From Planctomycetaceae bacterium (GTDB lineage Bacteria; Planctomycetota; Planctomycetia; Planctomycetales; Planctomycetaceae): a stretch of 34,695 nt of DNA. Of the stretch, positions 9,062 through 33,553 are shown piece by piece. Within the stretch, counting starts at the first letter, position 1. Each line of letters starts with the position of its first letter. The notes under the pieces were generated by a model. It did not search any database, was not told the DNA's origin, and was given only the letters and a program-made list of their open reading frames with translations. A program made the position numbers and the translations under genes. The stretch spans positions 1 to 34,695 of the forward strand of contig JABURQ010000197.1 of the NCBI GenBank assembly GCA_014762625.1, given 5' to 3'.

Positions 9062-9310
9062 TTAAGAGACTGAGGAGGAATGACGATCTTCCGAGAGCAG
9101 TTCGGGAGGACAATCTTCCAATTGCGGGTCGCCGGAACAATCGGGGGACGGCTTCGTACACATTTCGCACATGGTCTTGCCGTCAGAGTCTTTCATGTTC
9201 GCCAACCCGCCGCAAGACCCCTGAATGCGACGATTCGAGAGGATCACTCCTATCGACATACCAGCGACAGCGAGCAGAAAGATTCCAGCTGAGATGAGAT
9301 AAGTAATCAT
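9062..9310 (-). CDS. nqrM: Na+-NQR maturation factor NqrM
   Basis: 82 aa. The frame extends to 9337, but the ATG at 9310 overlaps the apbE stop (ATGA) and gives the usual NqrM layout: one N-terminal membrane helix (residues 3-25) followed by the family signature GSCGGL (31-36), then a Cys cluster (C48, C51, C58, C67). NqrM (former DUF539) is needed to assemble active NQR and is thought to deliver iron for the cluster held by NqrD/NqrE; the Cys in SCGGL is the key residue in Vibrio. Its place directly after apbE in an nqr operon is the standard arrangement and supports the call strongly. Confidence 0.9.
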   Translation of the reverse strand: MITYLISAGIFLLAVAGMSIGVILSNRRIQGSCGGLANMKDSDGKTMCEMCTKPSPDCSGDPQLEDCPPELLSEDRHSSSVS

Positions 9311-10380
9311 TGTTTCTCTCCCCGACCCTGTTTCCAAACGGAAGTCGCTCTTTCCTCAAATCCTTCATCGGCATGAATCAACATCAATGCCGCGAGATTT
9401 TGGGCTTCTGCCCAATTATACCCGTTATCGGGTCCCATCACCATCAAAGCGGTCGCCAAGGCATCCGCTTCCAGACACGTTTCCGCAACAACGCTCACCG
9501 AAGCCAGGGTGTGAGTGATTGGTTTCAGGGTCCGAGGATCGATGGTATGCGAGTATTTCTGACCGTCCCGTTCGATGTAATTTCGATAGTCGCCGGATGT
9601 CGCCATCGCCTGATCGTCGAGCGCCACAGATGTCTGTAACGTGCGGCGAGAGGATTCAGGACGTTCGATACCGATTCGCCAGCGAGCTCCATTCTCCTTA
9701 CGCCCGGCCACTCGCACTTCTCCACCAATTTCGACCAGATAGGACTTCACCCCCCGGGATCCCAAATACTCGGAAACAGCGTCCACCCCGAACCCTTTGG
9801 CAATCGCCGAGAGATTGACACTCAACCCCGTGACCGATTTTTTGAGACCCGGAGGCTCCAAGCGAGTGGTTATTTTTTCGGAACCGATCAGTTTTGCGAG
9901 TTCATTGAGTTCGTCTTCTGTCGGCGGTTCCTTATCGCGTCCCGCCGGCCCAAAACCCCAGGCATCGATCAACGGGGCAACAGTCACATCAAACGCTCCG
10001 CCGGACAGTTGGTGAATGCGAATCGACTCCTGAAGTACCTTCGCAGTCTCAGGTGAGACTTCAAACCAGTCAGTCGATTCGCTCGCATTGAATCGACTGA
10101 CTTCGGAATCCTCAATCCAGTTCGACATTTGTTGATTGACGTTTTTCAGAACCTCAAAAATGCCGGCGGAAAGAGCTTCCGGATCTTCTCCTTCGGGGGG
10201 ATCGATGATGGTAATCGAGTAGGTCGTCCCCATCGTTTGACCGGTGATCCGGACTCTCTCGGGAGGGGCTGAAGAGGACTCGCATCCAACACAGCAGAAG
10301 GCGCAGACGAGCCCCATCCACCATAAAAAACGGACACCCGAGGGTGTCCGTCGTCGTGTTATGCGAAACGCCAAAGGCAT
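9307..10380 (-). CDS. apbE: FAD:protein FMN transferase (ApbE), lipoprotein
   Basis: 357 aa from the ATG at 10380, which follows the nqrF stop by one base and has GGTGGA about 5 bases upstream. A longer frame to 10425 would run 44 bases into nqrF and is less likely. The N-terminus is a lipoprotein signal with lipobox CVGC (Cys33), so the protein is probably membrane-tethered in the periplasm. ApbE motifs: GQTMGTTY (47-54), AIAKGFGVDAV, the HTIDPRT block and the late EADALATA block that binds Mg2+/FAD. It attaches FMN from FAD to Thr residues of NqrB and NqrC, whose acceptor motifs are both present upstream. It overlaps nqrM by 4 bases. Confidence 0.93.
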   Translation of the reverse strand: MPLAFRITRRRTPSGVRFLWWMGLVCAFCCVGCESSSAPPERVRITGQTMGTTYSITIIDPPEGEDPEALSAGIFEVLKNVNQQMSNWIEDSEVSRFNASESTDWFEVSPETAKVLQESIRIHQLSGGAFDVTVAPLIDAWGFGPAGRDKEPPTEDELNELAKLIGSEKITTRLEPPGLKKSVTGLSVNLSAIAKGFGVDAVSEYLGSRGVKSYLVEIGGEVRVAGRKENGARWRIGIERPESSRRTLQTSVALDDQAMATSGDYRNYIERDGQKYSHTIDPRTLKPITHTLASVSVVAETCLEADALATALMVMGPDNGYNWAEAQNLAALMLIHADEGFEERATSVWKQGRGEKQ

Positions 10381-10381
10381 A

Positions 10382-11602
10382 TCATCCACCGAAGTCGTCG
10401 AAGGCAATATTTTCCGGTTCGACACCGAGATTGTCCAACATGTTCAGGACCGCCTGCAACATCATCGGAGGACCACAGATATAGTACTCACAATCCTCAG
10501 GAGCGGGGTGCTTACTTAGATATTCATCGAGCAACACCTGATGAATGAATCCCTGCGGTCCTTGCCAGTTGTCTTCAGGCAGAGGATCCGACAACGCAAT
10601 ATGCAGGCTGAAGTTCGGATTCTCTTCCTCGAGCTTTTCGAACTCATCCAGATAGAACAGTTCGCGGCTACTCCGACCGCCGTACCAGTAACTGACCTTG
10701 CGATCGGTATTGCGGAGCTTGAACAGATCGAAGATGTGAGACCGCAATGGAGCCATTCCCGCACCGCCGCCGATGTAAACCATTTCGGCGTCGGTATCCT
10801 TGATGAAGAATTCCCCATAAGGTCCGGAGATGGTGACCTTGTCACCTGCTTTGAGATCAAAAATATAGGAAGACATTTTTCCCGGAGGTGTCCCCTTGGG
10901 AGCCCGAGGAGGCGGAGTCGCCACACGGACGTTAAGCATGATGATCCCTTTTTCTCCGGGATAATTGGCCATCGAGTAGGCTCGGATCACCGGCTCATCA
11001 ACTTTTGATTCGATCTCCCACAGATTGTACTTGTCCCAATCTTCGTGAAATCGTTCTTCAATCTTAAAGTCGCTGTATTTCAACTCGTGCGGAGGTGCTT
11101 CGATCTGGATGTACCCTCCCGAGCGGAAGTCGACGTTCTCTCCCTCCGGGAGTTCCAGAACCAGTTCTTTGATGAAGGTCGCCACATTGCGATTCGATTT
11201 GACCGTGCATTCCCACTTTTTGGTCTCGAAAGCTTCATCCGGCACTTCGATATTCATGTCCTGCTTCACAGCAACTTGACACGAAAGACGACAACCGGCG
11301 CGTTCATCTTTTTTATTGATGTGCCCTTTTTCGGTCGGCAGGATATCGCCTCCCCCTTCAAAGACTTTCACTTTGCACTGGGCACACGTCCCGCCACCAC
11401 CGCAGGCGGAGGAAACAAAAATGCCGTTATTCGCCAAAGCTCCGAGAAGTTTCCCACCGGCGGGGACGGTCAACTCTTTCTGATCGTTCACCATGATGTG
11501 AACATCCCCGGAAGGGACCAGAACTTTTTTGGCTTGCAGAATGATCAGTACGAGTCCGACGACCACACCGGTGAAAACCAGAATTGCGAGAACGATTTCC
11601 AT
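10382..11602 (-). CDS. nqrF: Na+-translocating NADH:quinone reductase subunit F
   Basis: 406 aa, normal length. It has an N-terminal membrane helix (residues 3-23), then a ferredoxin domain with the 2Fe-2S ligands C67, C73, C76 and C108 ([12 protein letters not shown]...SCQ), then a ferredoxin-reductase-type FAD domain with RAYSMANYP, an NADH-binding motif ([14 protein letters not shown]) and the terminal CGPPMM block ending in FDDFGG. This is the entry point for electrons: NADH to FAD to 2Fe-2S, then on to the membrane subunits. A 64-base gap separates it from nqrE, the largest gap within the run. The complete set of ligands indicates an active subunit. Confidence 0.97.
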
Positions 11603-11666
11603 AATTCTATTGCTCTTTCGTGAATTCCTGACGTCCTGACTTATTCTGGGACGTTGGAACGTACGA

Positions 11667-12263
11667 TCATAGTTTGATACCGGAAAAGGACATGAACGCG
11701 AGCGCCATCAACCCCACGGTAATAAACGTAATCCCCAGGCCCTTCAAACCGTCGGGGACATCGCTGTATTTCATTTTCTCTCGAATGCCGGCCAGTGCGA
11801 CGATCGCCAGCGCCCAACCCACACCCGAACCGAATCCATAAACTAACGATTCCGGAAGATTATAGTCACGTTCGACCATAAACAACGTTCCTCCCAGAAT
11901 CGCACAGTTCACCGTAATCAGAGGCAGGAAAATCCCCAGGCTGTTGTAGAGTGCCGGGAAAAATCGGTCGAGGGTCATTTCCAGAATTTGGACCATGGCG
12001 GCGATCGTACCGATGTAGCAGATCAACCCCAGGTATTCGAGGCCAAAGTTGGAAATGATGGCCCCTTCTTTCAGGATGTTCTGGTAGATGACGTTGTTCA
12101 TCGGAACGGTGATGGACTGAATAACGACCACCGCCAGACCGAGTCCGAACGCGGTTTTCACATTTTTCGAGACGGCAAGAAACGTACACATCCCCAGGAA
12201 AAAGGCGAGTGCCAGATTCTCGACGAAAATCGATTTCACAAACAGACTCAGGTAATGTTCCAT
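11667..12263 (-). CDS. nqrE: Na+-translocating NADH:quinone reductase subunit E
   Basis: 198 aa of almost wholly hydrophobic sequence with six likely membrane helices. It belongs to the NqrDE/RnfAE family. Cys26 ([10 protein letters not shown]) and Cys120 ([12 protein letters not shown]) sit at the positions of the paired cysteines that, with those of NqrD, hold an iron centre in the middle of the membrane in Vibrio NQR. The N-terminal [16 protein letters not shown] matches NqrE rather than RnfA. It starts three bases after the nqrD stop, so translation is likely coupled. Confidence 0.96.
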
Positions 12264-12266
12264 GAT

Positions 12267-12896
12267 TTATCCTTCCTCTTCCACTTGCTCCGGGTAGGCG
12301 GTTCGTATCGCCCAGATGATCAAGCCGATCAGGAAAAAAGCGGAGGGAGCGAGCAGCATCAAACCGTTCGGCTGATACCAGCCCCCATTTTTGACATTGG
12401 CGAGAATTTCGACTCCAAACAATTTCCCGGAGCCGAACACTTCGCGAAAGAGCGCGACAACCACCAGAATCAAACCATAGCCCAGCCCGTTCCCGACACC
12501 GTCGAGAAAGCTCAATTTGGGCGTGTTCTTCATGGCAAAACCTTCAGCGCGTCCCATCACAATACAGTTGGTGATGATAAGCCCGACGAAAACCGAGAGC
12601 TGACGGCTGATGTCCGGAAGAAAGGCTTGAAGTATCTGGTCGACCAGAATCACCATCGACGCAATGATCGTCATCTGGACGATGATACGAATACTGCCGG
12701 GAATCTCGGACCGAATCAGGGAAACCAAAAAACTCGACACGGCTGTTACGAAAATCACGGCAACCGCCATTGTAAACGCGGTTTCCATTTTGGTGGTCAC
12801 GGCCAAAGCCGAACAGATGCCCAGAATCTGTAACGCAATGGGATTGTTCTTCAGAACAGGATTGAAAAGGACTTCCTTGGTTTTTGCTTCAGCCAT
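12267..12896 (-). CDS. nqrD: Na+-translocating NADH:quinone reductase subunit D
   Basis: 209 aa, six predicted membrane helices, NqrDE/RnfAE family. The paired cysteines are Cys28 ([12 protein letters not shown]) and Cys111 ([16 protein letters not shown]), the second within the highly conserved family signature. It pairs with NqrE as an inverted-topology partner to form the membrane core that carries the iron centre. Its ATG overlaps the nqrC stop by one base (TAATG), indicating coupled translation. Confidence 0.96.
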
Positions 12897-13705
12897 TATA
12901 GGGCCTCCGTTTCAGCACTCAAACGCTTGTTGAGGAACAGCTTGTATCCATCATCGCCGAGCCAGTACTCAATGGTGTTTTCCACACCGTTGGAAGTAAT
13001 CGTGGCTCCTGAGAGGGCATCGATCTGGTGCTCGGCTTCGGGAGAAGATTCATTCACCCCACCTTTCACGACATTAATCGCCGGAACGAGTTCGCCGTCT
13101 TCTTTCTCGCGGGCCTGTTTCCCCACCCACGATTGTTTCCAGGCAGGATTATCGATTTCCCCTCCCAGGCCCGGGGTCTCTCCATGTTTGTAAAAAGTGA
13201 TCCCTGCCACGGTTTTGAGATCATTTTCCAGCGCCAGATAGCCGTACATGGTCGACCACAGGCCTTTCCCATAAATCGGTAGAACGATTTTACTGAATCC
13301 GTCACCGCTTTCATTTCGGACAAAGTAAACGAACTGATATTTTTCCCGACGACCGATGCCGGCAACATCCTCCTCGGCGGGAATATTCTCACTCATCTCC
13401 GGATCGGAAGCTGCTTTCAGCGGATCGTAGGTATCCGGATCCACGGTCGATTCGTCCACTTCCAAACCGGTATCGAGGTCGATCAGTTTCGTTTCAACAA
13501 CTTCAAATTGTTTCGAAACCGCAGGCGCGTCGTCACTATCATCATAGATCCCCGCGGCCTTCAGGATCTCCCGCTGCATCAGCGCACGTTTATTTGCCTC
13601 CTGCATGCCTCGTAGCGATACCGCTGCGGCACTCACGACAAACGAGCAGACAACACATAGAATTGTGGCAACCATCACGGTGCGAGTGGGTGTTTCACGC
13701 GGCAT
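12896..13705 (-). CDS. nqrC: Na+-translocating NADH:quinone reductase subunit C
   Basis: 269 aa, with one N-terminal membrane helix (residues 8-31) and a periplasmic FMN-binding domain. The covalent FMN site is D229-ALSGA-T235 ([12 protein letters not shown]), matching the ApbE acceptor motif; Thr235 should carry FMN through a phosphoester bond. Other family blocks are [12 protein letters not shown] (148-159) and [10 protein letters not shown] (175-184). A loop rich in Asp, Glu and Pro (about 85-115) looks like a local expansion. The gene overlaps nqrB by 11 bases and nqrD by one. Confidence 0.96.
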
Positions 13706-14921
13706 TGCGGGCCATCCTTCTTTTCACATTGGCCTGAACGACGAGATAGTCGATGACCGGGGCAAACACGTTACCAAACAGAATCGCCAACATGATTCCT
13801 TCGGGAAAGGCGGGGTTGATGACGCGAATCAAAATCGTCATGAGACCAATGAGGATTCCATAAAACCATTTACCGGTTTCGGTCATTGAGGCGGAGACGG
13901 GATCGGTCGCCATGAAGACGGTACCGAAAGCAAACCCTCCCACTACCAGATGCCAGTAGGCCGGTAAGGCGAAGACGGCATTGGTGTCACTGGGAATTCC
14001 CCAGAGCAACGTAGCGAGTCCCATCGCACCGATCACAACTCCCGACATGATCCGCCAGGAACCGATCCCGGTCGCAATCAGGATCGCGGCTCCAATCAGA
14101 CAGGCCAACGTCGAGGTTTCTCCCATCGAACCGGGGATCGTACCCAGAAACGAATCCCACCAGGTCACATCGACGGCCCCCATGCCGACAGGGCCGGGAG
14201 CAGTTCCCAGAGCCGTCAAAGCCGTGGCACTCGACATCCCATCCACAGCCGTCCAGACCGATTCACCACTGATCTGACCGGGATAAGCAAAATATAGAAA
14301 CGCACGCGCCGTCAAAGCAGGATTCAGGAAGTTTCGACCGGTCCCGCCGAAGATCTCTTTACCGATCACGACGCCGAAACTGATCCCCAGGGCCACTTGC
14401 CATAGAGGGATCGAGGGGGGCAACGTCAAAGGGAATAACATACCGGTAACGAGAAATCCTTCGTTGACTTCATGTTTGCGGACCGTGGCAAACAGAACCT
14501 CCCACAAGCCACCCACCGTCATGGTCACGATGTAAGCGGGGAGAAAGTACAATCCACCGAGCAACACGTTGCTCCAGAGGGAATTGGCATCAAAAGTCCC
14601 TCCCAGTGAGGCAAACAGATCACCACGCCACCCCTGATTGGCGACGGCATCTTCGAAAGACATCTCAGAGAGCTGCAGATTCGCTTGATACCCGGTGTTC
14701 CAGAAGGCCATGGCGATGCAGGGGATCAGCGCCACGATCACCATGCTCATGATGCGTTTGAGATCCATCCCATCGCGCACGTGCGAAGCATTCGTCGTCA
14801 CTTCCCCTGGTGTGTAGAGGAAAGTATCGGTCGCTTCGTAGAGAGGATAAAACTTCTCGAGTTTCCCTCCCTTGGCGAACTTGGAATGTTGACTGTCGAG
14901 AAGACGCCGCAGGATTTTCAT
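13695..14921 (-). CDS. nqrB: Na+-translocating NADH:quinone reductase subunit B
   Basis: 408 aa with an N-terminal cytoplasmic segment ([15 protein letters not shown]) followed by about ten membrane helices; NqrB/RnfD family. The flavinylation motif is D227-G-M-S-S-A-T233 (DGMSSATAL), placing the covalent FMN on Thr233, close to Thr236 of Vibrio. Here the residue before Ala is Ser, where NqrC has Gly. Other conserved blocks are [20 protein letters not shown] (150-169) and [12 protein letters not shown] (192-203). NqrB forms the Na+ route and contributes to quinone reduction with NqrA. It starts 15 bases after nqrA. Confidence 0.97.
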
Positions 14922-14936
14922 GGAGGTCTGTTCCCG

Positions 14937-16286
14937 TTATCCTTCTTTTTCGATCCGTGTCAGGTTTTTCCGCAGGATGGGGCCATACTCGTATTTGCCG
15001 GGGCACACAAAGGTGCACAACGCCAAATCTTCCTCATCCAGTTCCAGACAACCGAGCGCTTGCGATTGTTCGGTGTCCTCCACAATCAGGGATCGTAAGA
15101 GGAAGGTTGGAATGATATCGAGCGGCATCACTTGTTCGTAGGATCCGATGGGGACCATCGCCCTCTTGCTGCCCTGGGTCGAAGTTGTGAAATCGAACTT
15201 GTCAGCCTTGCCGTTGAAGGCCGAGGCGAAAATCTTTTTGACGGAGAATTTATCGAAACCCGGCTTCTGCCATCCCAGGAACTCGCGTTCGGTCCCTTCC
15301 TCGATGACAGAGATTTGTAAATGATAGCGACCGAGAAAATTAAACGGCGCCACACCATTACGGCCGGAAAACACCGACCCCGAGATGATGCGATTGTGAT
15401 CCCCGTCCAGTTCACCCGCCGTTAAATCGTCGAGACTGGCTCCTATTCGGGTCCGAATGACTTTGGGCGATTTCACTCGCGGCCCTGCCAGAGAGACCAC
15501 CCGTTCAAAGTCTAGTTTTCCCGTCAAAAACAACCGGGCGATCGCGATCACATCCTGATAGTTGATGTGCCAGACCGACTTTTTGAGACCGACCGGATCG
15601 ATCATATGGATGTGGGTTCCCGGAAGCCCCGCCGGATGGGGGCCTTCAAACTCGTGAACCTCAACGGACGGCAAATCACCGCCGGTAAGAATCACCCCAG
15701 GAGCCTTGCACAAATGGACTTTACCGGAGGTCAGGTGACGAATGATCTGCAAGCCGTATTCGAAATCCTTGCCGGATTCCCGAATCACAATCTCGGGATT
15801 GACGGCGAGTGGATTGGTATCGATGGCGGTCACAAAGATCGAATGCGGAAAAGCATCAATTGCGGGAACTTTGCTGAAGGGTCGCGTTCGAAAGGAGGTC
15901 CAAAGTCCCGACTCGACCAACAGCTCTCGTACTTGATCACCCGTCAGCTCGTCGAAGCTCTTGTCTGAATAATTCGTGAACTCCAATGCCTCTTCCTGAT
16001 CGTCGAGCTGAATGACGACCGATTGAAAAACTCGCTTTTGTCCACGATTGACGGCAATAACTTCGCCCGATCCGGGCGCAGTATATCGAACGCCTTCGGT
16101 CTTTTTATCGGTGAAAAGAAGCTGGCCAGCTTTCACCTTGTCGCCAACCTGAACTTCCATGGTCGGCTTCATCCCCACATAGTCGAAGCCGACGACAGCC
16201 ACCTGCTTGACGTCGGGTCCAGCAACAATCTCTTGAACGGGCTCCCCCTTAATAGGAAGATTGAGCCCTTTATTGATCCTGTGCAT
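14937..16286 (-). CDS. nqrA: Na+-translocating NADH:quinone reductase subunit A
   Basis: 449 aa from the ATG at 16286. The frame is open up to 16355, but the family normally begins directly with a KGL-DLPI-like block, here [16 protein letters not shown], so the longer start is unlikely; AGAGG lies 12 bases upstream. The protein is soluble, carries the Rnf-C/NqrA biotinyl-lipoyl-like fold, and includes [21 protein letters not shown] (about 30-50), the AIDTNPLA block and the late [21 protein letters not shown]-type end. It sits on the cytoplasmic face and helps bind quinone. It is the first gene of the run nqrABCDEF-apbE-nqrM-lhgO, so the operon promoter should lie in the 606 bases upstream. 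Confidence 0.96.
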
Positions 16287-16779
16287 TCCGAACCGATTCC
16301 TCTTCGAAACGGAGGAGTAATTGTAAGTGATGACGTGACTTGCATTTGCTCTCATCAGAGAGCTGGGGCCGGACTGGAGATCGAACGCCTCATCTCAGCG
16401 GTGACCACCACAGCTCACAGGGAGATCAGCGATCACACTATCCGACGGAAGTCGCGACATAATCACGGCTTCCTGTTGGTATCTTACAAATCGATGCGCA
16501 GAATGGTAGGCAACGGGTGGGGTCTCTTTTTGTGATTTCTTGTCAGTGAGAACCGGAAGAGATTCGAACGTCACCCCGATGAGAAATATGCGGAAATCGC
16601 CTTTATTTCAGGCACTTCCTGCGATTGCCGTTTCTTCGAGCCGATTCCCGATCCTGAAAGGCGAACTTCCTCATCCCGAGAAAAGGTTTCTGTCGATTCC
16701 GTAAGTTTTGCCCCCTCCTTCAACGAATTACCTAACCAGAACAACCGCTATGACTGGGAACTCTCTTTCGCCGAATTGT

Positions 16780-21065: not shown

Positions 21066-21722
21066 ATGAACGATTTACTGAATCAAATCTCCAACCTATC
21101 AACACAGATCATCGGTGGTGCCTTTGCGGCTCATCTGTTCCTGTTTCTGGTTTTACGAATCTGGTCGCGTCGTGATTTGCACGGCATCGTCGGTACTCTG
21201 GATGATTTCACTCGCGGCCTCAAGCATCGTAGCGTTCTCGATCGACGAGGACATCTGACCGAGCAGGTGGATGCCTTTCTGTCGGATGTCAACGATGTTC
21301 TCCTGCATCGAGAACAAAGTGCAGAGCGGGAGACCCTCAAACAACGCATCAACGTGCTTGATGAGAAACGATCCTACCTGCATTCCATGCTGTTTGAGAC
21401 AACATATAACATGGCTCGCAACATGATCGACGCTTATCCTTTGCTCGGTGTACTCGGCACAATCCTCGCAATAGGTGCCGCCCTTCAACAGCCGGTCGAT
21501 GCCGGAGCAACAGTAAGCGGCGTGGAGGCCATAGTGGGGCGGTTCGGGGAAGCGATCTGGTCGACGTTTGCAGGATTGATTTGCGGTATCCTGCTGATGT
21601 TTGTCAACAGTCTTCTCGAACCGGCTTTTCTACGACTTTCCGAAAATCGATTGCAGGTCCGCGAAATGATCTCTCGCGTCAAACACGAGTTGATTCTTGC
21701 GGGCGATAAGGGGGCGGCATGA
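21066..21722 (+). CDS. TolQ/MotA/ExbB-family ion channel subunit
   Basis: 218 aa with three membrane helices (about 15-33, 124-141, 163-184) and a long cytoplasmic loop that looks coiled-coil between helices 1 and 2. The family core is AYPLLGVLGTILAIGAAL in helix 2 and GEAIWSTFAGLICGILLMFVNS in helix 3, matching ExbB/TolQ stator subunits that conduct protons or sodium. A hairpin CTCAC/GTGAG (21045-21049, 21058-21062) lies just before the ATG and covers the only ribosome-site-like bases. Its stop overlaps the next start (ATGA). It is neither a flagellar MotA by context nor a canonical TolQ, as no tolB, pal or tonB is nearby. It likely forms an ion-driven complex with the next two gene products. 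Confidence 0.8.
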   Translation: MNDLLNQISNLSTQIIGGAFAAHLFLFLVLRIWSRRDLHGIVGTLDDFTRGLKHRSVLDRRGHLTEQVDAFLSDVNDVLLHREQSAERETLKQRINVLDEKRSYLHSMLFETTYNMARNMIDAYPLLGVLGTILAIGAALQQPVDAGATVSGVEAIVGRFGEAIWSTFAGLICGILLMFVNSLLEPAFLRLSENRLQVREMISRVKHELILAGDKGAA

Positions 21723-22609
21723 GTTTGCGTACCCGCAGGACGGTCTTTCAACTGACGCCTCTGCTCGATCTTCTGTTGATTGTTATTTTCGCGCAATACA
21801 TGGATGTACGACAGGCGGGAGCGCGGCAGGAAGTCTGGTTTGAGAAAGAGGCCGGTCAGCTAGAGGCGGCAGCCGTCGCTCAAGCGGAAAAAGAAGCGGG
21901 CCTGCGGCAACAGGCGGAGATTCAACTCGCGGTAGCGGAAAAACAGCTCAAAGATCTTCAGGAAAAACAGGGAATGACCGCTGATCTTCTGGAAGATATG
22001 AAGACTCAGCGCAAGCTAATGGCGGAGATGCTGACTCAGTCGTTAAAAATCGATCCACAAATCATTGCGGAGTTGATGGACAACGCCCGCGACGAAACGA
22101 CCTTCGATGCAACACTTCGACAAACTCTTCAGGAACTCAGTCAAGCTTCTCAAGCGGAAGCGGTCTCGCTGGCAACCTCTTATCACGAACTCCTGAAACG
22201 CTGCGACATCTGGGATTTTCGTTTGGAACTGGCGGAGGTAACGCCGGGAAAGATCGCTGCGAACGCAGCGGGAGCAACCATCGTCTTCAGCTTCGGAGAA
22301 CATCACCAGCAATTTGCGATCAATCTGAAAGACGGAGCGGTCATCACCAAAAAAGAGTTTGAAAAGACGATTACTGAAATCAAGAATTACCTGAAATCCC
22401 TCCCACAGCCCAAAGGAATTGTGATTGTGATTTCCGGTTTTCTGAATGAAGACACCAGTTTCGGCCTGCGAACCGATTACAAAGCCTTGATTCAGAAATT
22501 ACTCGACGAGCTCACTCTCGAATCTGCCGGACAAACGCGGTTCTATTACCGCGAACTCGGATATCTAGGTGACCTCGAAAACGATTCCCCAACAAAAGCG
22601 CGAGACTAG
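21719..22609 (+). CDS. ExbD/TolR-like stator partner with long coiled coil
   Basis: 296 aa. A single N-terminal membrane helix carries the ExbD/TolR signature QLTPLLDLLLIVIFA (11-25), with Asp17 in the position of the ion-binding aspartate. A long Ala/Gln/Glu/Lys helix follows (about 40-110), probably a coiled coil, then a helical region (111-165) and a beta/alpha C-terminal part (166-285) containing PKGIVIVISGFLNEDTSFGL, reminiscent of ExbD or OmpA-like periplasmic domains. Canonical ExbD is about 140 aa, so this is roughly twice as long. The start overlaps the upstream stop by four bases. Function as an ion-channel partner is well supported; what it moves is unknown. Confidence 0.72.
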   Translation: MSLRTRRTVFQLTPLLDLLLIVIFAQYMDVRQAGARQEVWFEKEAGQLEAAAVAQAEKEAGLRQQAEIQLAVAEKQLKDLQEKQGMTADLLEDMKTQRKLMAEMLTQSLKIDPQIIAELMDNARDETTFDATLRQTLQELSQASQAEAVSLATSYHELLKRCDIWDFRLELAEVTPGKIAANAAGATIVFSFGEHHQQFAINLKDGAVITKKEFEKTITEIKNYLKSLPQPKGIVIVISGFLNEDTSFGLRTDYKALIQKLLDELTLESAGQTRFYYRELGYLGDLENDSPTKARD

Positions 22610-22612
22610 ACT

Positions 22613-23083
22613 ATGAACAAGCCCAAGCTCGTCTCCAACAAACAAATCATCGGCGGCGGTATTCTGTTGGCTGTCGCCGGGGCAATTCTGTCGATGGTGG
22701 GTGGCCTGTTTTCCGGCTTCGGATCGGGGGATGGTACGGGGGGAGAGGAAACCGGCGATGTCCGCATCTCCGCAGCCACTGACACCGAACAACCGGAGCC
22801 GATTCCTTCCGCCAAGACACTGGAAGTCGATGGCATCATGGATATCATCATCGATCAGACCACCTATTTCATTCAGAAAAAAGACAACAGCACGGTGGAA
22901 CTGAATCTTGAAGAAATTGCCGAACGGGCTCCTGAAATGACGGGCAACGTTCAAGGAATCAAAGTACGCGTCTCTCGAAAGCGTTCGTCATTGCTTTCTG
23001 CAGAACGTGATCTAGAAGAGACACTCGCTGCCGCTGGCCTCAGCGATGAACAGGTACAATGGGTCGCCGCGCCGATTGATTAA
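22613..23083 (+). CDS. Membrane-anchored protein with ExbD-like periplasmic region
   Basis: 156 aa. The N-terminal helix (about 11-36, IIGGGILLAVAGAILSMVGG) is Gly-rich and has no acidic residue. A short Gly/Glu/Thr linker follows, then a compact alpha/beta domain (about 70-155) whose strand-helix order (VDGIMDIIIDQTTYFI, LNLEEIAERAP, GIKVRVSRKRSS, then a helix ending in a final strand) resembles the periplasmic domain of ExbD/TolR. It begins three bases after the stop of the ExbD-like gene, and ends 10 bases before a convergent gene. It could be a second ExbD-type partner without ion-binding function. The structural resemblance is my inference from pattern only. Confidence 0.6.
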   Translation: MNKPKLVSNKQIIGGGILLAVAGAILSMVGGLFSGFGSGDGTGGEETGDVRISAATDTEQPEPIPSAKTLEVDGIMDIIIDQTTYFIQKKDNSTVELNLEEIAERAPEMTGNVQGIKVRVSRKRSSLLSAERDLEETLAAAGLSDEQVQWVAAPID

Positions 23084-24263: not shown

Positions 24264-25223
24264 TTAGCGTGATTTTACGGCTTTGACTGTCGATACAATA
24301 TTTTCAGCGGTCAACCCATACTTTTCAAGAAGCCCCATGGGATCTCCACTCTCGGCATAACAATCTCCAACATTCACATACCCCATCGGGACAGGGTGTT
24401 CTTCACTCACCACTTGAGCAACGGCCGCCCCCAACCCACCATGATGAAGATGCTCTTCGGCGACGATGATGCAACCTGTCTCTTTGGCAGCGGCCACAAC
24501 AGCCGCGCGGTCAACCGGCTTGACTGTGTGCATATCAATCACACGCGTATTGACACCTTCATCTTCCAGCATTTTGGCAGCGTCCGCTGCAATCGAAACC
24601 ATGATGCCGTTAGCGATGATCGTCGCATCCGACCCATCCTTGAGAGTAATCGCTTTACCGATTTGGAAATGGACACTCTCATCATACAAGGCGGGCACTT
24701 TGGGGCGTCCCAGGCGCAAATAGGTCGGTCCCTGGTGCCCGACCATGGCTCGGGTCGCTTTTTTCGCACTGACACCATCGGCAGGAACCATTACAGACAC
24801 ATTGGGCAACGAACAAGCCAGGGAGACGTCCTCAATGCCCATCTGAGAGGGGCCGTCTTCACCAATCGAAATACCGGCGTGACTGCCCACCAATTTCACG
24901 TTTTGCTCTGGAAACGCGACCGACATTCGAATTTGGTCGAAGGCGTTGTTGAGCAAAAAGCAGGCGAAGCTGGCAACCACAGGAATTTTCCCCGTTCCCG
25001 CCAAACCGCCGGCCACGCTGACCATGTTGCTCTCGGCAATCCCGACGTTAAAACCGCGCTCGGGATACTTTTCTGCAAATGGTTCCGTGCGGGTCGAGTT
25101 CCCAACGTCGCCGTCCACTGTCACCACATTGGGAAATTCGTCTCCCAAATCGGCCAGAGCCTCTCCAAAGGCGTCGCGCGTCGCCTGACCCATTTGATAT
25201 CCGCTTAATTCTCCGATCGCCAT
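24264..25223 (-). CDS. Transketolase, C-terminal subunit
   Basis: 319 aa comprising the pyrimidine-binding domain and the C-terminal domain. The catalytic Glu that activates thiamine diphosphate is Glu64 in GFNVGIAESNMVSVAGGLA (57-75). Other blocks are SFACFLLNNAFDQIRMS, SHAGISIGEDGPSQMG and VAEEHLHHGGLGAAVAQ. With the product of the upstream gene it makes a complete transketolase that moves two-carbon units between sugar phosphates in the pentose phosphate pathway. DXS and pyruvate dehydrogenase E1-beta are related but the GEDGPSQM block fits transketolase. It lies 72 bases downstream of the N-terminal subunit gene; there is no frameshift remnant between them, so the split looks genuine. Confidence 0.92.
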   Translation of the reverse strand: MAIGELSGYQMGQATRDAFGEALADLGDEFPNVVTVDGDVGNSTRTEPFAEKYPERGFNVGIAESNMVSVAGGLAGTGKIPVVASFACFLLNNAFDQIRMSVAFPEQNVKLVGSHAGISIGEDGPSQMGIEDVSLACSLPNVSVMVPADGVSAKKATRAMVGHQGPTYLRLGRPKVPALYDESVHFQIGKAITLKDGSDATIIANGIMVSIAADAAKMLEDEGVNTRVIDMHTVKPVDRAAVVAAAKETGCIIVAEEHLHHGGLGAAVAQVVSEEHPVPMGYVNVGDCYAESGDPMGLLEKYGLTAENIVSTVKAVKSR

Positions 25224-25295
25224 GATTCGATCTTTCGTTGAAATTCTACCTGATATTCGAGTGTTTGGATTATCCGAGACAGTCCGCTAGTTTCC

Positions 25296-26138
25296 TCATC
25301 CGAGGTGAGCCAGTGCTTTTTCCGCCAGTTCGCTCGAAAGGGGCTTTCCGTGATAATTGAGATCCCCGGTCGTTTCCAAGACTGGTAGGATGCCGAAACC
25401 TTTTTGCGTTTGTGAAACAATCAACGATGGCTGATCGGTCACTGCGTCAGCCTTCTCCAAAGCTCCCAAGGCTTCTCCCAGATCGTTTCCGTTAATGGTT
25501 TGCGTGTGCCATCCGAAAGGTGCAATCTTATCTGCAAAGGGAGTCAAATCCAGAACATCTTTCGTGGCTCCTGTCTGCTGGTAGCCATTTTGATCGATAA
25601 TCGCTACCAGATTTCCAAGCTTATACTTGGCAGCGGCGGCAATCGCTTCCCAAACTTGTCCTTCCCCCATCTCGCCGTCACCAATCATGACATAGACATT
25701 GCTGTCCTTCCCATCGAGACGAAGCCCCAAAGCCTGTCCGACGCCAATGGAAAGTCCCTGACCCAAAGAGCCAGTCGATGCTTCAATCCCCGGCATCCGT
25801 TTCAGGTTCGGGTGACCTTCGAACGGTGATCCCAGTTTTCTCAAAGACATGGTTTCTTCGACGGGGAAGAATCCACGCTCGGCCATCGCGGCATACAATA
25901 CAGGAACTGCATGTCCCTTGCTGAGAATAAAGCGATCCCGATCGGGATCGGCAGGATTCTCAGGATCCAGACGCAGATGCCCCCCAAAGTATAATCCAGT
26001 GACAATCTCGACCGCCGACAGACTACTTGTGGGATGACCGCTTCCCGCTTCGGTTGTCATTTTGATGATATTCTTACGAAGATCCTTTGCCTTCGCGAGC
26101 ATCTCTTCTTCACTCAGCTTGATTGCTTCCAAAGCCAC
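25296..26138 (-). CDS. Transketolase, N-terminal subunit
   Basis: 280 aa, starting with GTG at 26138 behind a ribosome site (GAGG, 8 bases upstream). It is the thiamine-diphosphate-binding half: SGHPTSSLSAVEI with His35, the LSKGHAVPVLYAA block (73-85), GSLGQGLSIGVG (123-134) and the cofactor motif GDGEMGEGQVWEA...N184 (GDG from residue 153). It pairs with the C-terminal subunit encoded next. Together they total 599 aa, less than the 650-680 usual for single-chain transketolase. Two-gene transketolases are known from archaea and many bacteria. Confidence 0.92.
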   Translation of the reverse strand: MALEAIKLSEEEMLAKAKDLRKNIIKMTTEAGSGHPTSSLSAVEIVTGLYFGGHLRLDPENPADPDRDRFILSKGHAVPVLYAAMAERGFFPVEETMSLRKLGSPFEGHPNLKRMPGIEASTGSLGQGLSIGVGQALGLRLDGKDSNVYVMIGDGEMGEGQVWEAIAAAAKYKLGNLVAIIDQNGYQQTGATKDVLDLTPFADKIAPFGWHTQTINGNDLGEALGALEKADAVTDQPSLIVSQTQKGFGILPVLETTGDLNYHGKPLSSELAEKALAHLG

Positions 26139-28374: not shown

Positions 28375-30360
28375 TCACTCCACTTCCAACCAGAGAATCT
28401 GGTACGAATCCAACTGAATGGGACCTGACGTTTCAATCGTCCGGTTCGAGAGGATGTCTTTGAAATAGCGTCCCAGACCAAGCGAGCGAACGCGATTCCC
28501 TTCGATCGTCTGGTGATCTTCCGAGAAGTTGGCCAGCACCGTGAGTCGGCTCCCTTCACGTTGTCTCACAAACCCCAGCAGATGATCGTTACCAGTCGCA
28601 ATCAACTTCATCTCGACCCCGCCTAATGCAGGGTGTGACTTTCGCAACCCGATCATTTTCTGAAGCGAACGAAAAATGCGTTTTCGAATGGCCCCATCCT
28701 GTGAATCGAGTTGTTCATCCAGTTCTTCCAGATATTCCCACTTCATTTTCGGACGATGAATCCAGCGAGTATCTCCAGCCTTCGCGGGATCTTTGACGAA
28801 ATCGTAATCATTGAGTTGCCCCCATTCTTCCCCCAGATACAACAGAGGAATCCCGCCGATGCTCAGTGTAATCCCGTTTAAGAGCATAATTCGACGTATC
28901 GCCATCTCCTTCAGATTGTCATCCTCAAGATCGATCGCCTGTTCGAGCCCTGCCAGTGACGCCAGGGTACCCGAGATGCGCATGTCGCCGGTTTCGAGAT
29001 TGTGCTGAAATGGCACGCCGCGCGCAAACGACCCTTCAAACTGTCCCGTGTAAAACTCATTCAGAAATTTGCGATGATCGTAAGCATTGATCCCCAACAC
29101 CGCGGCGTCAGCATCATCAAAAGTCCAGCCAATATCGTCATGACATCGTAAGTAGTTGACCCAGGTGGTTTGTTCGGGAAGTTGATGGCGATGACTTAAT
29201 GACTGCCGCAGTAAGCGAACGGAACGTGTCGCCAGAGACTCCCACAACAAAGCCATCAACGTTGGATTATACGAAATTTGACATTCTTCCGGACTGATGT
29301 ATCTGACCACATCATCGGGATGGACGATCGCTTCTGATTTGAACAACAGGCCGGGGGCGGCTACGCGAGCCAAAGCACTGAAAGCCTGAATCAGCCAATG
29401 GGCCTGGGGAAGATTTTCGCAGCTCGTCCCCATTTCTTTCCAAACAAACGCGACAGCGTCCAGGCGCAAAATATCGACGCCTGTGTTAGCGAGAAACAAC
29501 ATTTCTTCCAACATCGCTCGGAACACAGCGGGATTTCGATAATTCAAGTCCCACTGGTAGTTGTTAAACGTTGTCCAGACCCACTTCTCCATATTGTCGT
29601 GCCAGGTAAAATTCCCTCGCCGCACCGTGGGAAATATTTCGCGGAGAGTTCGCTCATACTGATCCGGCTCCGTCCTGTCGGGAAAGATATAATAGAAATC
29701 CTGGTATTCCTGAACTCCCGCCTGGGCTTGTTCCGCCCAATAATGATGGTCGGACGTGTGGTTGAACACAAAATCGAGCACCAAAGAAATACCCGCGGCG
29801 CGAAACTCTTCCGCGAGCTGCTGCAAGTCTTCAATCGTCCCCAAGCGAGGATCGATCGAGCGATAATTGCTGATGGCATAACCGCCATCATTGTCTCCCG
29901 GTCGTACCGCAAACAGCGGCATCAAATGCAGATAAGTGAGGCCGAGCGTCTGAAAATACGGAATTTGCTCTCTTAGACGACTCAGATTTTCACTGAATAA
30001 ATCGACGTACAGAGCGCCGCCCACCATTTTCTGCGACTGAAACCACTCGGGATCATTGATTCGGTGAAGATCGAGCTCCTTCAGATCGGGGGAGCGAGCC
30101 ACCCACGAACGCGCGGCCGTCAATAAAATCTGCTCGAGGTGATAGAAGAAGTCGAACCGTGTTCCGTACAGGCTCAATAACAAATGGAACAACCGAGGCC
30201 AAACCTGTTCCAACCGTTGATGAAATGAGTGCACAGTCTCTGCGGACGCTTGTTCCTCGATCCACACGGAATCAAGTCGAGGAAGAAGTCGTTGGAGCGT
30301 GAGATCCACCTCGTGGGCAGAGACTCGATTGTGTTCGTGAAGACTATTCAATCCGGTCAT
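28375..30360 (-). CDS. Amylosucrase (GH13)
   Basis: 661 aa from the ATG at 30360; a TTG at 30372 would add four residues. The N-terminal helical domain (1-105) is typical of amylosucrase, followed by the GH13 barrel. Catalytic residues by motif: nucleophile Asp301 ([14 protein letters not shown]), acid/base Glu343 ([11 protein letters not shown]) and transition-state Asp409 ([10 protein letters not shown]). The segment [11 protein letters not shown] (311-321) and the HDDIGWTF block fit Neisseria amylosucrase closely as I remember it. It uses sucrose to extend alpha-1,4-glucan, releasing fructose. Sucrose phosphorylase and sucrose hydrolase are relatives but less likely. The start overlaps the end of the sucrose-phosphate synthase gene by 17 bases, implying joint expression. 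Confidence 0.92.
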
Positions 30361-32503
30361 TCGGGATGACAATATTGTTTAAAAATTGGTAGTAATCAAT
30401 TCCTTCAAGGATTCCCTTGGCGTGAGGGGCGTCGGCAAAATAGATGCGCGGTGACTTTCTCAGTTCTTCCATTTCCGGGCTGTGATTGCCCACCACGACT
30501 CCGAGCGTGTGCCCTTTGAGCATTCCAATATCGTTCCCGGAATCTCCCGCAACCAACACTTTCTCGGGCGGAAACCCCCAGCGATAGAGAAGATGTCGCA
30601 TACAAAGACCGCTGTCGCCTCTCACAGGAAGGATATCGAGATACATGCCCAGAGAAAAGACTACGTTGGCCCGCAATCCCGCTTCCCGTAACATCCGCTT
30701 CAAAACGTTGATTTCGGGAGCGACTTCCGGATCCATTTCATAACTGATTTTGAATTCCGATTGTTCATTTTCTCCCTGTGGAAACAAGCCTGCCGTCTGA
30801 TCCAGGAGTTCGCGAATTTCATCCGGCTTCCACTGATATCCCATTTGCTTGCGCCAGGAGAGATCGGCCGTTAGCGAATCACCATAATGAAGCTCCGTCC
30901 CGACGGACGTAATAAACAAGTCAGGCGAAGGTAGATTCAGTTCCTTCACCATCTTGAGAGCATCATCCAATCGACGTCCGGTGGCGATCCCCAGACCGAC
31001 GTGTTCGTTTTGCTCGATCATCGTTTCGAATTCTCGCAAGCTCGCTTCATCTCCGGTCAATGTGTTATCGAGATCTGTTATGATCAAGCGGTCGAACTCG
31101 GGAAGGCGCTGTTTTCGAGAGACGTTGGCGAGTGCCGGCTCCGCAGTGGTCGCCAACAAATCCCGGATGTCTCGTAAATATCGATCCGCGTGGTGCTTCC
31201 ACGAGTAATGCTCGTTCGCTCCTCGGATGCCATTTTGCGACCATTCTTCCCAGTGATCAGACTCTGTCAGTACACGCAACAGACCGTGTTCAATCTCATG
31301 CTGATCGAAGGGATCGACCAGTAATCCGTTTTGGCAGTTGGCAACGATGTCGCGAGGTCCCCCGTCGTTCGTCGCCACGATCGGGACGCCACTCGCAGCC
31401 GCTTCGAGTAGCGTGAGTCCAAACGGCTCTGTCATCGCAGGGTTCACAAAAACTCCCTGAGAACTCGCTGCCATGCGATAGAGATCGGCAACATCGTCGG
31501 AGTTGTGCGATTTGGGGTAAGCGACTTTTCCGTAAAGATCGTAGACGTCGATCAGGACGAGAACCTGCTGCAGGATATTTCTTTGAGCGGGGACCATCTC
31601 TCGCAAATCTTCGCGAGACCCCATCAGCAGGACCAGATTTGCTTTCTCCTGCAGTGCTTCTGACTCTCCGTAAACCTTAACCAGCATCTCCAGATTTTTC
31701 CGTTCATCCGGTCGCGCCATGGCGAGAATCATCGGCTTGTCGGTGTCTTGCAGAAACCTTCCCAACTCGGCCCGCATCGGAGGCGTCTGGTCCTCCTCTT
31801 CCGGCGGGCGAAAGTTGGTGAGATCGACGCCGGGGGGAATTACCTCCATCCGTTCGGGAATATAGTGCTCATACAGCGCGTATTGTTCTTCGACCTCCTG
31901 ATTGGTACTGGCCACCACCAAGGCAGCCGTTTCAAGAGCCGTTTCCTCGGCCTCATTGCGAATCGTGAATTTATATTTCTTCTCCAGAGTTTCCGGTTTG
32001 GCGTTCCCCATCGCCAGTCGCTGTCGTTTCACTCGTCCCAGAGAATGCCCCGTAAAGACATACGGAACGCGTAATAATCGCGCCAATTGAGCCCCGGCAA
32101 AACCGGCATCTGCGTAGTGGCCGTGAATGATATCGGGCAATCCCGTGCGGCGGAAATGAGCCAGCGCATGATCGATGAAGACATCCAGATAAGGCCACAA
32201 CGATTCTTTTGCCAGATAACGTTTCGGCCCAAACGGAATCCGAATGAGTTTCGCTTTCTCAGAGATCGGTTCTTCGATCTGGGCATAGTCCGCATCTACA
32301 TTGTTATCGATAATCTGCCGCGTCAGCAGTTCCACTTCTCCGACGGAAGGATCCTGTGCCAGGGCTTCCGCCAATTCGAGCACATATTTGACCTGCCCAC
32401 CAGTATCGGAATCGCGGCCTAATTCCGGATCCTTGACACGAATCAGTCCGTGTAAACTAATCAGTGTGATTTTCAATTGGTCGTCATCTGAAGGAATACT
32501 CAT
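30344..32503 (-). CDS. Sucrose-phosphate synthase with C-terminal sucrose-phosphatase domain
   Basis: 719 aa. Residues 9-450 are a GT4 glycosyltransferase: sugar-phosphate-binding SDTGGQVKY (32-40), [11 protein letters not shown] (128-138), [10 protein letters not shown] (151-160) and the donor motif [11 protein letters not shown] (358-368). Residues about 468-715 form a HAD phosphatase of the SPP type with all motifs intact: D477-L-D479-N-T481, T508-G-R, K585 (EFKISYE), and GDSGND with D654 and D658. In some cyanobacterial enzymes this domain is inactive; here the residues predict activity, so one chain could make sucrose from UDP-glucose (or ADP-glucose) and fructose-6-phosphate. It is upstream of amylosucrase on the same strand and diverges from a separate phosphatase gene. 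Cytoplasmic. Confidence 0.92.
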
Positions 32504-32731
32504 AGCCTCGGAAATCCTGTCGATTCAGATCCAGAGAGGGCGCAACTCATCCGGACAGTGACATCCTCGAAGTTGATTCGGTGGATTAAGAAAAGAGAGT
32601 CAACACGGTTAGAACAAAAAGCGTCATCTGCGCGAAGGTATCTCGCAGTATGGGAGAAACCGTCACTCGCTTTACAAGTGGCTGGTTGGCTAATAATTGA
32701 CAATGACATTGGTAATGGCTTTGATTATAGC
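32504..32731. promoter_or_regulatory. Divergent intergenic region of the sucrose genes
   Basis: 228 bases between the sucrose-phosphate synthase gene (leftward) and the phosphatase gene (rightward). Rightward, TTGACA at 32697-32702 is followed by TTGATT (32721-32726, 18 bases) and an ATTATA (32724-32729); either would place transcription start almost on the ATG at 32732, suggesting a leaderless or nearly leaderless message. No ribosome site is visible before that ATG. A longer in-frame start at 32558 is possible but would add 58 residues with no family similarity. Confidence 0.35.
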
Positions 32732-33553
32732 ATGAACATGCAAAAATCACGAGCGAACCATTTTCGTCCGCGCGTCCTGGCCACGGATCTCGACGGGACA
32801 TTGATTCCCAATGAGGAAGAGCAAAAGCCGTCACTCGAAACTCTCCGCACGAAACTGAGCCACACAAACTCTCAACTCGTCTTTGTGACCGGACGCGACT
32901 TTGGGTTGACAACAGAAGCGATCTCCGAAAACGAACTTCCACGAGCGGACTGGATTATCTGCGACGTCGGCACGTCCGTGATGCACAGAGTTGAGGATGA
33001 ACCATTTGAGCTGGTCGAAGATTATCGACAGCACTTAAAGAGCCTGTGTGCAGATCTGCCTCGCGAGCAACTCCAGCAGGAGTTTGAGAGGTGGGGCGAA
33101 CTGCGGTTGCAGGAAGAGTCGAAACAAGGCGAATTCAAGCTCAGTTTCTACACCAAAGCTGACGAAATTGATGACCTGGAGCAACGAATCCAACAGTGGC
33201 TCACAGAGCATTCCGCTCCCTGGTCGGTGATCTGCAGCGTCGACCCTTTTACCAACGATGGTCTCGTTGACTTTCTGCCTAAAAACGTGTCCAAGGCCTA
33301 TGCGCTGGAATGGTGGAGACAACACGAATCCTGGGAGCAAGAGGAAATCGTCTTCGCAGGAGATAGCGGCAACGATTTTGCTGCTCTAACGGCGGGATAC
33401 CTGGCAGTCGTGGTCGGTAACGCTCACCAATCCGTCATTAACAAAGTCCGTCAGGCCATGCGCGAGAGGGAGTGGCTGGATCGACTGCATGTGGCTGAGG
33501 GGCATTCGACAACAGGCGTTCTCGAAGGGTGCAGAGCTTTTGGTTTATTTTAA
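32732..33553 (+). CDS. Sucrose-6-phosphate phosphatase (HAD superfamily)
   Basis: 273 aa from the ATG at 32732, chosen since HAD motif I then begins near residue 15 as usual for the family. Motifs: D19-L-D21-G-T23 (nucleophile Asp19), T53-G-R, Lys136 (EFKLSFY) and D211-SGND215 in VFAGDSGNDFAALT. The cap region includes ICDVGTSV (77-84), a typical SPP segment. It hydrolyses sucrose-6-phosphate to sucrose. It duplicates the C-terminal domain of the divergent synthase, with only moderate similarity (shared EFK, GDSGND and DVGTS/SVGTE blocks). Related mannosyl-phosphoglycerate or glucosyl-phosphoglycerate phosphatases are possible, but the neighbour favours sucrose. Confidence 0.85.
   Translation: MNMQKSRANHFRPRVLATDLDGTLIPNEEEQKPSLETLRTKLSHTNSQLVFVTGRDFGLTTEAISENELPRADWIICDVGTSVMHRVEDEPFELVEDYRQHLKSLCADLPREQLQQEFERWGELRLQEESKQGEFKLSFYTKADEIDDLEQRIQQWLTEHSAPWSVICSVDPFTNDGLVDFLPKNVSKAYALEWWRQHESWEQEEIVFAGDSGNDFAALTAGYLAVVVGNAHQSVINKVRQAMREREWLDRLHVAEGHSTTGVLEGCRAFGLF

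Follow-up and report, generated by a model that had tools for sequence, protein, structure and literature searches.

Whether the periplasmic domain of an ion-driven envelope motor must move with its axle is hard to tell, because in known motors of the TolQR/ExbBD/MotAB family a single protein bears both the helix that carries the ion and the ExbD/TolR periplasmic domain. A natural system with both parts on separate proteins would make this question directly testable. Three consecutive genes, here called A, B and C, raise the question of whether such a system exists. They lie in a 34,695-nucleotide stretch of DNA from Planctomycetaceae bacterium (assembly GCA_014762625.1, contig JABURQ010000197.1, forward strand), which is referred to as the window. 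A first-pass annotation of the window had described them as a TolQ/MotA/ExbB-like subunit followed by two ExbD-type partners. In our analysis the picture is rather that of one ExbD divided between two proteins: ExbD looks split, with its pore helix in B and its periplasmic domain in C. It reads as divided because the helix was recognised in B alone, and the domain in C and, by the tests used here, not in B. The triad is a real, conserved gene set that is not ordinary, and we read it as a variant of the TolQR/ExbBD/MotAB kind. It suggests that this bacterial family, whose envelope is unusual, has an almost universal envelope machine that is so far uncharacterised.

Sequence and structural features of the three proteins

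The ExbD-like helix of B was identified by profile comparison. It matched the planctomycete ExbD helix with a probability of 85.4% (P 5.8e-6), where the highest of 30 column shuffles gave 3.9%. This match has to be read with the fact that the comparison ExbDs had been chosen by a pattern requiring the pore Asp. The helix carries the TP..D start and the acid as in ExbD/TolR (PF02472). The acid, Asp17, is D in 61 of 61 aligned rows and in 23 of 23 rows of a deeper alignment, the two alignments sharing rows. The Pfam ExbD model gave no match to B of the window at E <= 1, and thus none at its cut-off, and it matched two of the 61 B relatives (best E 0.0068).

In the AlphaFold2 model of B (mean predicted local distance difference test score, pLDDT, 85.7; predicted template modelling score 0.55), residues 7-109 form a single helix, which includes both the pore helix and a predicted coiled-coil shaft. 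Past the membrane helix, a 3.5-residue hydrophobic period exceeded the 95% shuffle level of the row itself in 46 of 61 rows, and its mean strength was reached by none of 100 shuffles. A helix rises 0.15 nm per residue, and at this value the shaft outside the membrane is computed to be about 12 nm long. Since the heptad-like period starts right after the pore helix, the easiest explanation would be two parallel B chains leaving one pore. A B-like protein in genome G063 (locus L238, 6312-7592) has a much longer stalk within an open frame of more than 420 residues, so lineages differ widely in the length of the shaft.

The distal head of B was modelled with pLDDT mostly of 91-97 and a low stretch near residues 171-185. 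An ExbD domain was considered for the head and found no support, the profile probability being 0.7-1.4%, no better than shuffles. ExbD and TolR were not among the structural rows shown for the B model, an absence which does not exclude them. RNase H-like folds headed the list with Z of at most 8.6, and Foldseek gave no match at E <= 0.001; no functional meaning is given to this resemblance because the tool calls that Z level common. The annotation of the second gene as a long ExbD/TolR protein stands for the helix, Asp17 and the coiled coil and found no support in the distal domain.

C showed the other half of ExbD, the periplasmic domain, by predicted structure. The AlphaFold2 model of C has high confidence for residues 73-156 and not for the anchor and linker. 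In a Foldseek search of the PDB with this domain, ExbD (8pek, E 8.4e-4) ranked first and TolR (5by4, E 8e-3) second, with unrelated ribosomal chains close behind by E-value. After realignment, five ExbD/TolR entries gave Z 8.4-9.3 and one TolR entry 6.5, and the best unrelated entry gave 6.2. The TolR entry 5by4 reached Z 9.3 with a root-mean-square deviation of 3.0 over 80 residues. The predicted ExbD/TolR-like fold of C is well supported, and shared descent of the domain with ExbD is moderately supported. Pfam ExbD did not match C of the window at E <= 1, and hence not at its cut-off; it matched two of 50 C relatives below the cut-off (best E 0.0048). The domains of B and C showed no similarity to each other in profile comparison (1.8%).

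The anchor of C is of a different type from the helix of B. Compared with the ExbD helix, it gave a probability of 0.1% or less, and the TP..D start is absent. Its best hydrophobic stretch contains no Asp or Glu in 56 of 57 relatives, the exception being an end residue in a row cut short by us, and no His in any of the 57. Thus, the neutral helix and ExbD-like fold that had been ascribed to the third protein were both recovered. The anchor was not modelled as a helix (pLDDT about 50). The linker that follows has spaced glycines in 48 of 50 relatives and a mean length of about 52 residues.

Gene A had been assigned to the TolQ/MotA/ExbB family, and this assignment was borne out by a match to Pfam MotA_ExbB (PF01618) at E 1.4e-7 and 31.7 bits, above the curated cut-off of 22.9. 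All 22 aligned A relatives matched the same model at E <= 0.1, with scores over the cut-off or nearly so. Among the PDB rows returned for the A profile, five of seven were ExbB or TolQ, led by two ExbB entries (E 0.0018 and 0.0019) and then TolQ (E 0.13). Pro125, Thr132 and Thr167 are invariant in a 16-row deep alignment that includes distant families. In alignment with TolQ, Pro125 of A corresponds to Pro138, Thr132 to the threonine in the GT step after Pro138, and Thr167 to Thr178. A study of the TolAQR structure gives Pro138 and Thr178 of TolQ as conserved and names Thr178 as a pore residue (PMC12215075). On sequence grounds, A is a TolQ/ExbB-type channel subunit.

Table 1. Positions of the three genes and of their main features in the window.
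Feature	Position	Strand	Description
Gene A	21066..21722	+	218 residues, TolQ/ExbB/MotA-type channel subunit
Thr132 codon of A	21459..21461	+	First conserved threonine; Thr in 22/22 and 16/16 rows
Thr167 codon of A	21564..21566	+	Second conserved threonine; Thr in 22/22 and 16/16 rows
Gene B	21719..22609	+	296 residues, putative axle and shaft subunit
B residues 7-29	21737..21805	+	ExbD-like pore helix by profile comparison
Asp17 codon of B	21767..21769	+	Expected ion-carrying acid; column invariant
B residues 30-109	21806..22045	+	Predicted coiled-coil shaft, continuous helix with pore helix
B residues 162-282	22202..22564	+	Distal head, predicted beta-beta-beta-alpha-beta-alpha-beta
Gene C	22613..23083	+	156 residues, membrane-anchored protein with predicted ExbD/TolR fold
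C residues 12-33	22646..22711	+	Neutral hydrophobic anchor without acid or His
C residues 34-72	22712..22828	+	Gly/Ser/Thr-rich linker, spaced glycines
C residues 73-156	22829..23080	+	ExbD/TolR-like periplasmic domain by fold search

Conservation of the gene set

The conservation of A, B and C across many related genomes makes the triad more than a chance arrangement. B was detected in 33 of 36 close relatives and in none of 22 genomes from other families of the same class. In a class sample of 397 genomes it was found in 121, six of which lie outside the family, and phylum samples of 294 and 392 genomes added a few more. For the named planctomycete loci, which are the best 80 of 104, A and B occurred together in 79, with B directly after A. 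C was present downstream of B in 50 of the 80. It was on the same strand and within 559 bases of B in 49 of these and 1.9 kb away on the other strand in one. Cultured planctomycetes in which the three genes are adjacent include Thalassoglobus neptunius (L123) and Aporhodopirellula aestuarii (L131). For four of the 29 named loci with B and without C, the sequence ends within 220 bases of B.

The order A, B, third gene was seen in all eight loci examined from five other planctomycete families. By profile, the third gene was clearly C in four of them (E 1e-25 to 1e-4). In a fifth, that of G072, the values are partly circular: this gene had no match to the first C profile and entered only after profile iteration. 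In the other three the third gene was weak (E 0.0021, 0.47 and 2.3) and was recognised by its place, anchor, Gly-rich stretch and ExbD-like pattern. The iterated E-values for A and B of G072 and G063 are likewise partly circular, although an earlier search had already detected B in both genomes before any iteration. The deeper B profile did not recover G063. Another candidate relative, in G099, was dropped, as the match lay inside a 976-residue open frame and no A or C was found beside it.

Clustering of the open reading frames around A in the 80 named loci returned A, B, C and their antisense shadow frames, followed by a metW-like gene, which occurred in 13 loci and in most of them lay immediately upstream. 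All other neighbour families were scattered and in fewer loci than the metW-like gene. Nine inspected loci with an unlinked C had no shared neighbour by eye. One observation made in passing was a multi-pass membrane protein about 2 kb 3' of A and near C (L143, L028 and others), which by eye resembles an AI-2E-type transporter; its cluster includes eight loci, six of them at the same offset.

Presence and absence were then tabulated by hand across the family (170 genomes). B was detected in 151 genomes and A in 148 (E <= 1e-25). C was detected in 149, which became 147 once two matches, those of G009 (E 2.8e-4) and G406 (E 2.9e-5), had been dropped as short, weak or within a long unrelated frame. 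B and C were both present in 142 genomes and both absent in 14, with B only in nine and C only in five. The corresponding counts for the 130 better-quality genomes were 118, six, four and two. Treating the genomes as independent, Fisher tests gave p 6e-11 for the 170 and 9e-7 for the 130. The six better-quality genomes with neither B nor C come from five genera and have no A either. In most genomes, then, B and C are retained or lost as a pair.

Linkage of the genes was looser than their joint presence. Where both could be placed (140 genomes), C lay no more than 3 kb from B in 86 and at another location in 54. The unlinked cases include several single-contig genomes, with B-C distances from 54 kb to megabases. 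In 12 of 12 genomes with A-B and no adjacent C, C was found elsewhere, and three genomes without B had no C. A and B were on different contigs in nine of the 38 genomes for which the position of A was recorded. The expectation of a conserved block in planctomycetes was thus borne out for the eight distant loci and for the joint retention of B and C, and it does not hold for the genomes in which C is unlinked or A and B are apart. In genomes of genus g268, for example G416 (L247, L248, L249), A, B and C are on three different contigs with high-scoring matches retained.

Comparison with other motor genes

In the host genome, seven proteins match Pfam ExbD and six, one of which is A, match MotA_ExbB. 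Six of the seven ExbDs form three ordinary ExbB-ExbD-ExbD sets (G000 contigs C28, C33 and C167; L166-L175), and the pore Asp is kept in all seven, in both partners of each set. Genome G019, which lacks A, B and C, also has seven ExbDs, so the triad would be an addition and not a replacement. TonB_C had no match in the host genome, while the E. coli control was found. Two side observations concern these genes. The set on C33 is preceded by a gene that is TPR-like by eye, and at L176 (G000:C194, about 1-2229, minus strand) an open frame of 408 residues matches MotA_ExbB and precedes a protein with the hydrophobic helix FPFLAVLLCAMGALLVLLV. This helix lacks the usual Asp and may belong to another motor with an acid-free partner.

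The triad shares features with several known systems. Like TolQ-TolR-TolA of the Tol-Pal system, it has a channel subunit with matching proline and threonine positions, a one-helix partner with the ion-carrying Asp, and a third protein that has one helix and a small distal domain. Unlike in that system, the long rigid rod belongs to B, the Asp-bearing protein, rather than to the third one, the TolR-type domain is part of C, and there is no tolB or pal nearby. Compared with the ExbB-ExbD Ton motor, the helix of B resembles the ExbD helix and the domain of C resembles the ExbD domain; however, the triad has these halves in two proteins, and its host lacks a TonB_C match. The planctomycete sets with a TolQ-like gene and two TolR-related genes also have one channel gene followed by two partner genes. 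In the ordinary sets all ExbDs keep the Asp, whereas in the triad only B does, and no vWA gene was found among the scanned frames of the window.

Other motors offer parallels in general plan. The AglQ-AglR-AglS gliding motor has one channel subunit and two TolR-like proteins, and the GldL-GldM motor combines a channel subunit with a partner, GldM, that has a long periplasmic rod. In plan, the triad resembles the first in its channel with two TolR-like partners and the second in its long-rod partner; the window showed no recognisable gene for gliding or type IX secretion. The Zorya defence motor ZorA-ZorB likewise consists of a MotA-like subunit and a one-helix partner. A role in Zorya phage defence was rejected, as none of A, B and C matched any PADLOC model at E up to 1. 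Among the matches listed for the open-licence literature, none was a paper describing the triad, and the main text of an essential-gene paper on Planctopirus limnophila, a planctomycete for which genetic tools exist, contained none of six motor terms looked for.

Proposed motor and alternative explanations

We propose, with a probability of roughly 0.55, that the three proteins make up a single ion-driven machine in the envelope, of the same 5:2 type as TolQR/ExbBD/MotAB, in which C is a docking or clutch partner. The observed gene layout, gene set and conserved residues and the predicted fold of C are its starting points, whereas the assembly with its 5:2 count, the dimer of B, the rotation, the ion, the part played by C and the output are inferred. 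Five A subunits would form the channel and two B helices would occupy its pore, where Asp17 would take up and release the driving ion. The coiled coil of B would be a stiff drive shaft holding the head of B about 12 nm above the membrane. C would stand outside the pore on its own neutral anchor and flexible linker and would supply the ExbD/TolR-type periplasmic domain, which is part of the moving subunit in ordinary motors. C would most likely dock on the wall or on the head of B as a clutch or stop, and B, by rotating or tilting, would exert mechanical work on the wall or outer membrane. Two reports state that peptidoglycan can be bound by the domains of ExbD and TolR (PMC4646322, PMC10771500). 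The 52-residue linker could let C reach well into the periplasm. A more extended form of the proposal is tentative and is less probable in our estimate: a phylum-wide planctomycete motor with a divided ExbD, in which B would be the ion-carrying axle with a long rigid shaft and its own head, and C a non-rotating, tethered domain that binds the wall or a partner.

Several results weigh against the proposed machine. The head of B has no firm match to anything. The C domain is 37-46% probable as ExbD by profile comparison, where 30 shuffles gave at most 1%, and the C sequence profile retrieved no ExbD from the PDB, its best rows being ribosomal eL31 (E 0.011). The lengths of the C linker and B shaft are uncorrelated (rho -0.07, p 0.66, n=42; rho 0.13, n=13), and because they do not covary there is no support for C reaching the head of B. 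The genomes compared are related, so their co-occurrences are not independent events, and assembly gaps matter. Some individual genomes also break the pattern: G409 (99% complete) has A and B with no C found, G393 (99%) has C without A or B, and G413 (89%) has A without B or C.

Four other explanations were weighed against the proposed machine. In one, B and C would sit together in the pore as a mixed pair, B contributing a conducting and C a neutral helix to a 5:1:1 motor. The ExbD-type domain of C would suit this arrangement, and so would the precedent of paired TolR-like genes beside a tolQ-like gene, which is on record for the Planctomycetes-Verrucomicrobia-Chlamydiae group (PMC12204202) and of which the host has three cases. 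However, the helix of C has neither similarity to the ExbD helix nor the TP..D start, ordinary ExbDs of the genome keep the acid in both partners, the coiled coil of B starts at the pore exit, which suits two B chains, and C is unlinked in more than a third of the genomes in which it could be placed. We consider this explanation unlikely. Less likely again is that C acts as a force transducer like TonB or TolA, bound to the outer face of the ring of A subunits and pulling on an outer-membrane partner. C does have the same plan of one helix, a flexible linker and a small distal domain, and the host genome has no TonB_C match. The helix of TonB and TolA, however, has a conserved motif with an essential His, as stated in the same study (PMC12204202), and the hydrophobic stretch of C lacks His throughout its relatives. 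In addition, the fold of C matches ExbD/TolR rather than a TonB or TolA domain. C has no Pfam match, and none of the fold-search rows shown was a TonB or TolA domain, an absence that does not exclude one.

If A and B alone were the motor, C would be an unrelated small envelope protein that travels along with them. This would account for its separate location in many genomes and for its lack in good genomes with A and B (G407, G409 and G414), yet B and C are present or lost jointly beyond independence, if the genomes are taken as independent, and the same third gene occurs in all of the distant loci. We regard it as improbable. An ordinary ExbBD-like nutrient-uptake or Tol-Pal motor that has merely diverged is very improbable, even though A and B are, broadly speaking, members of that family. 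The genome has no TonB_C match, tol-pal genes are not among the scanned frames of the window, and ordinary ExbB-ExbD-ExbD sets are also present. TonB-driven nutrient uptake in particular was rejected: of eight genomes tested for TonB_C, only G010, of the same family and itself without A, B and C, had a match.

Gene neighborhood in the window

The three genes were described as coupled, and they are on the same strand with a 4-base overlap between A and B (21719-21722) and a 3-base gap between B and C (22610-22612). The three genes are likely transcribed as one unit, with or without metW, because A starts 127 bases 3' of metW and the gene beyond C is on the opposite strand, its end 10 bases from C. 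B and C were below every family cut-off in Pfam and NCBIfam. The reported lack of tonB, tolA, tolB, pal and flagellar genes nearby agrees with the Pfam scan, which named none in 23 other open reading frames of the window; small frames and the frame at 12267-12896 were left out. For tolB and pal this applies to the scanned frames, as a split locus elsewhere in the genome was not searched for.

Other gene sets in the window were noted as side observations. On the minus strand, 9307-16355 has Pfam matches to NqrA, NqrB, NqrC (FMN_bind), an Rnf-Nqr membrane subunit, an NqrF-like reductase and ApbE, a set corresponding to a sodium-pumping NADH dehydrogenase near the triad. A sodium gradient may be available, since the window encodes this Nqr-type pump. 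The region 28375-33553 is probably a sucrose cluster, as it encodes an amylase-family enzyme, a sucrose-phosphate synthase/phosphatase-like protein and one further phosphatase. Lastly, at 24264-26138 on the minus strand, transketolase is split into separate N- and C-terminal genes.

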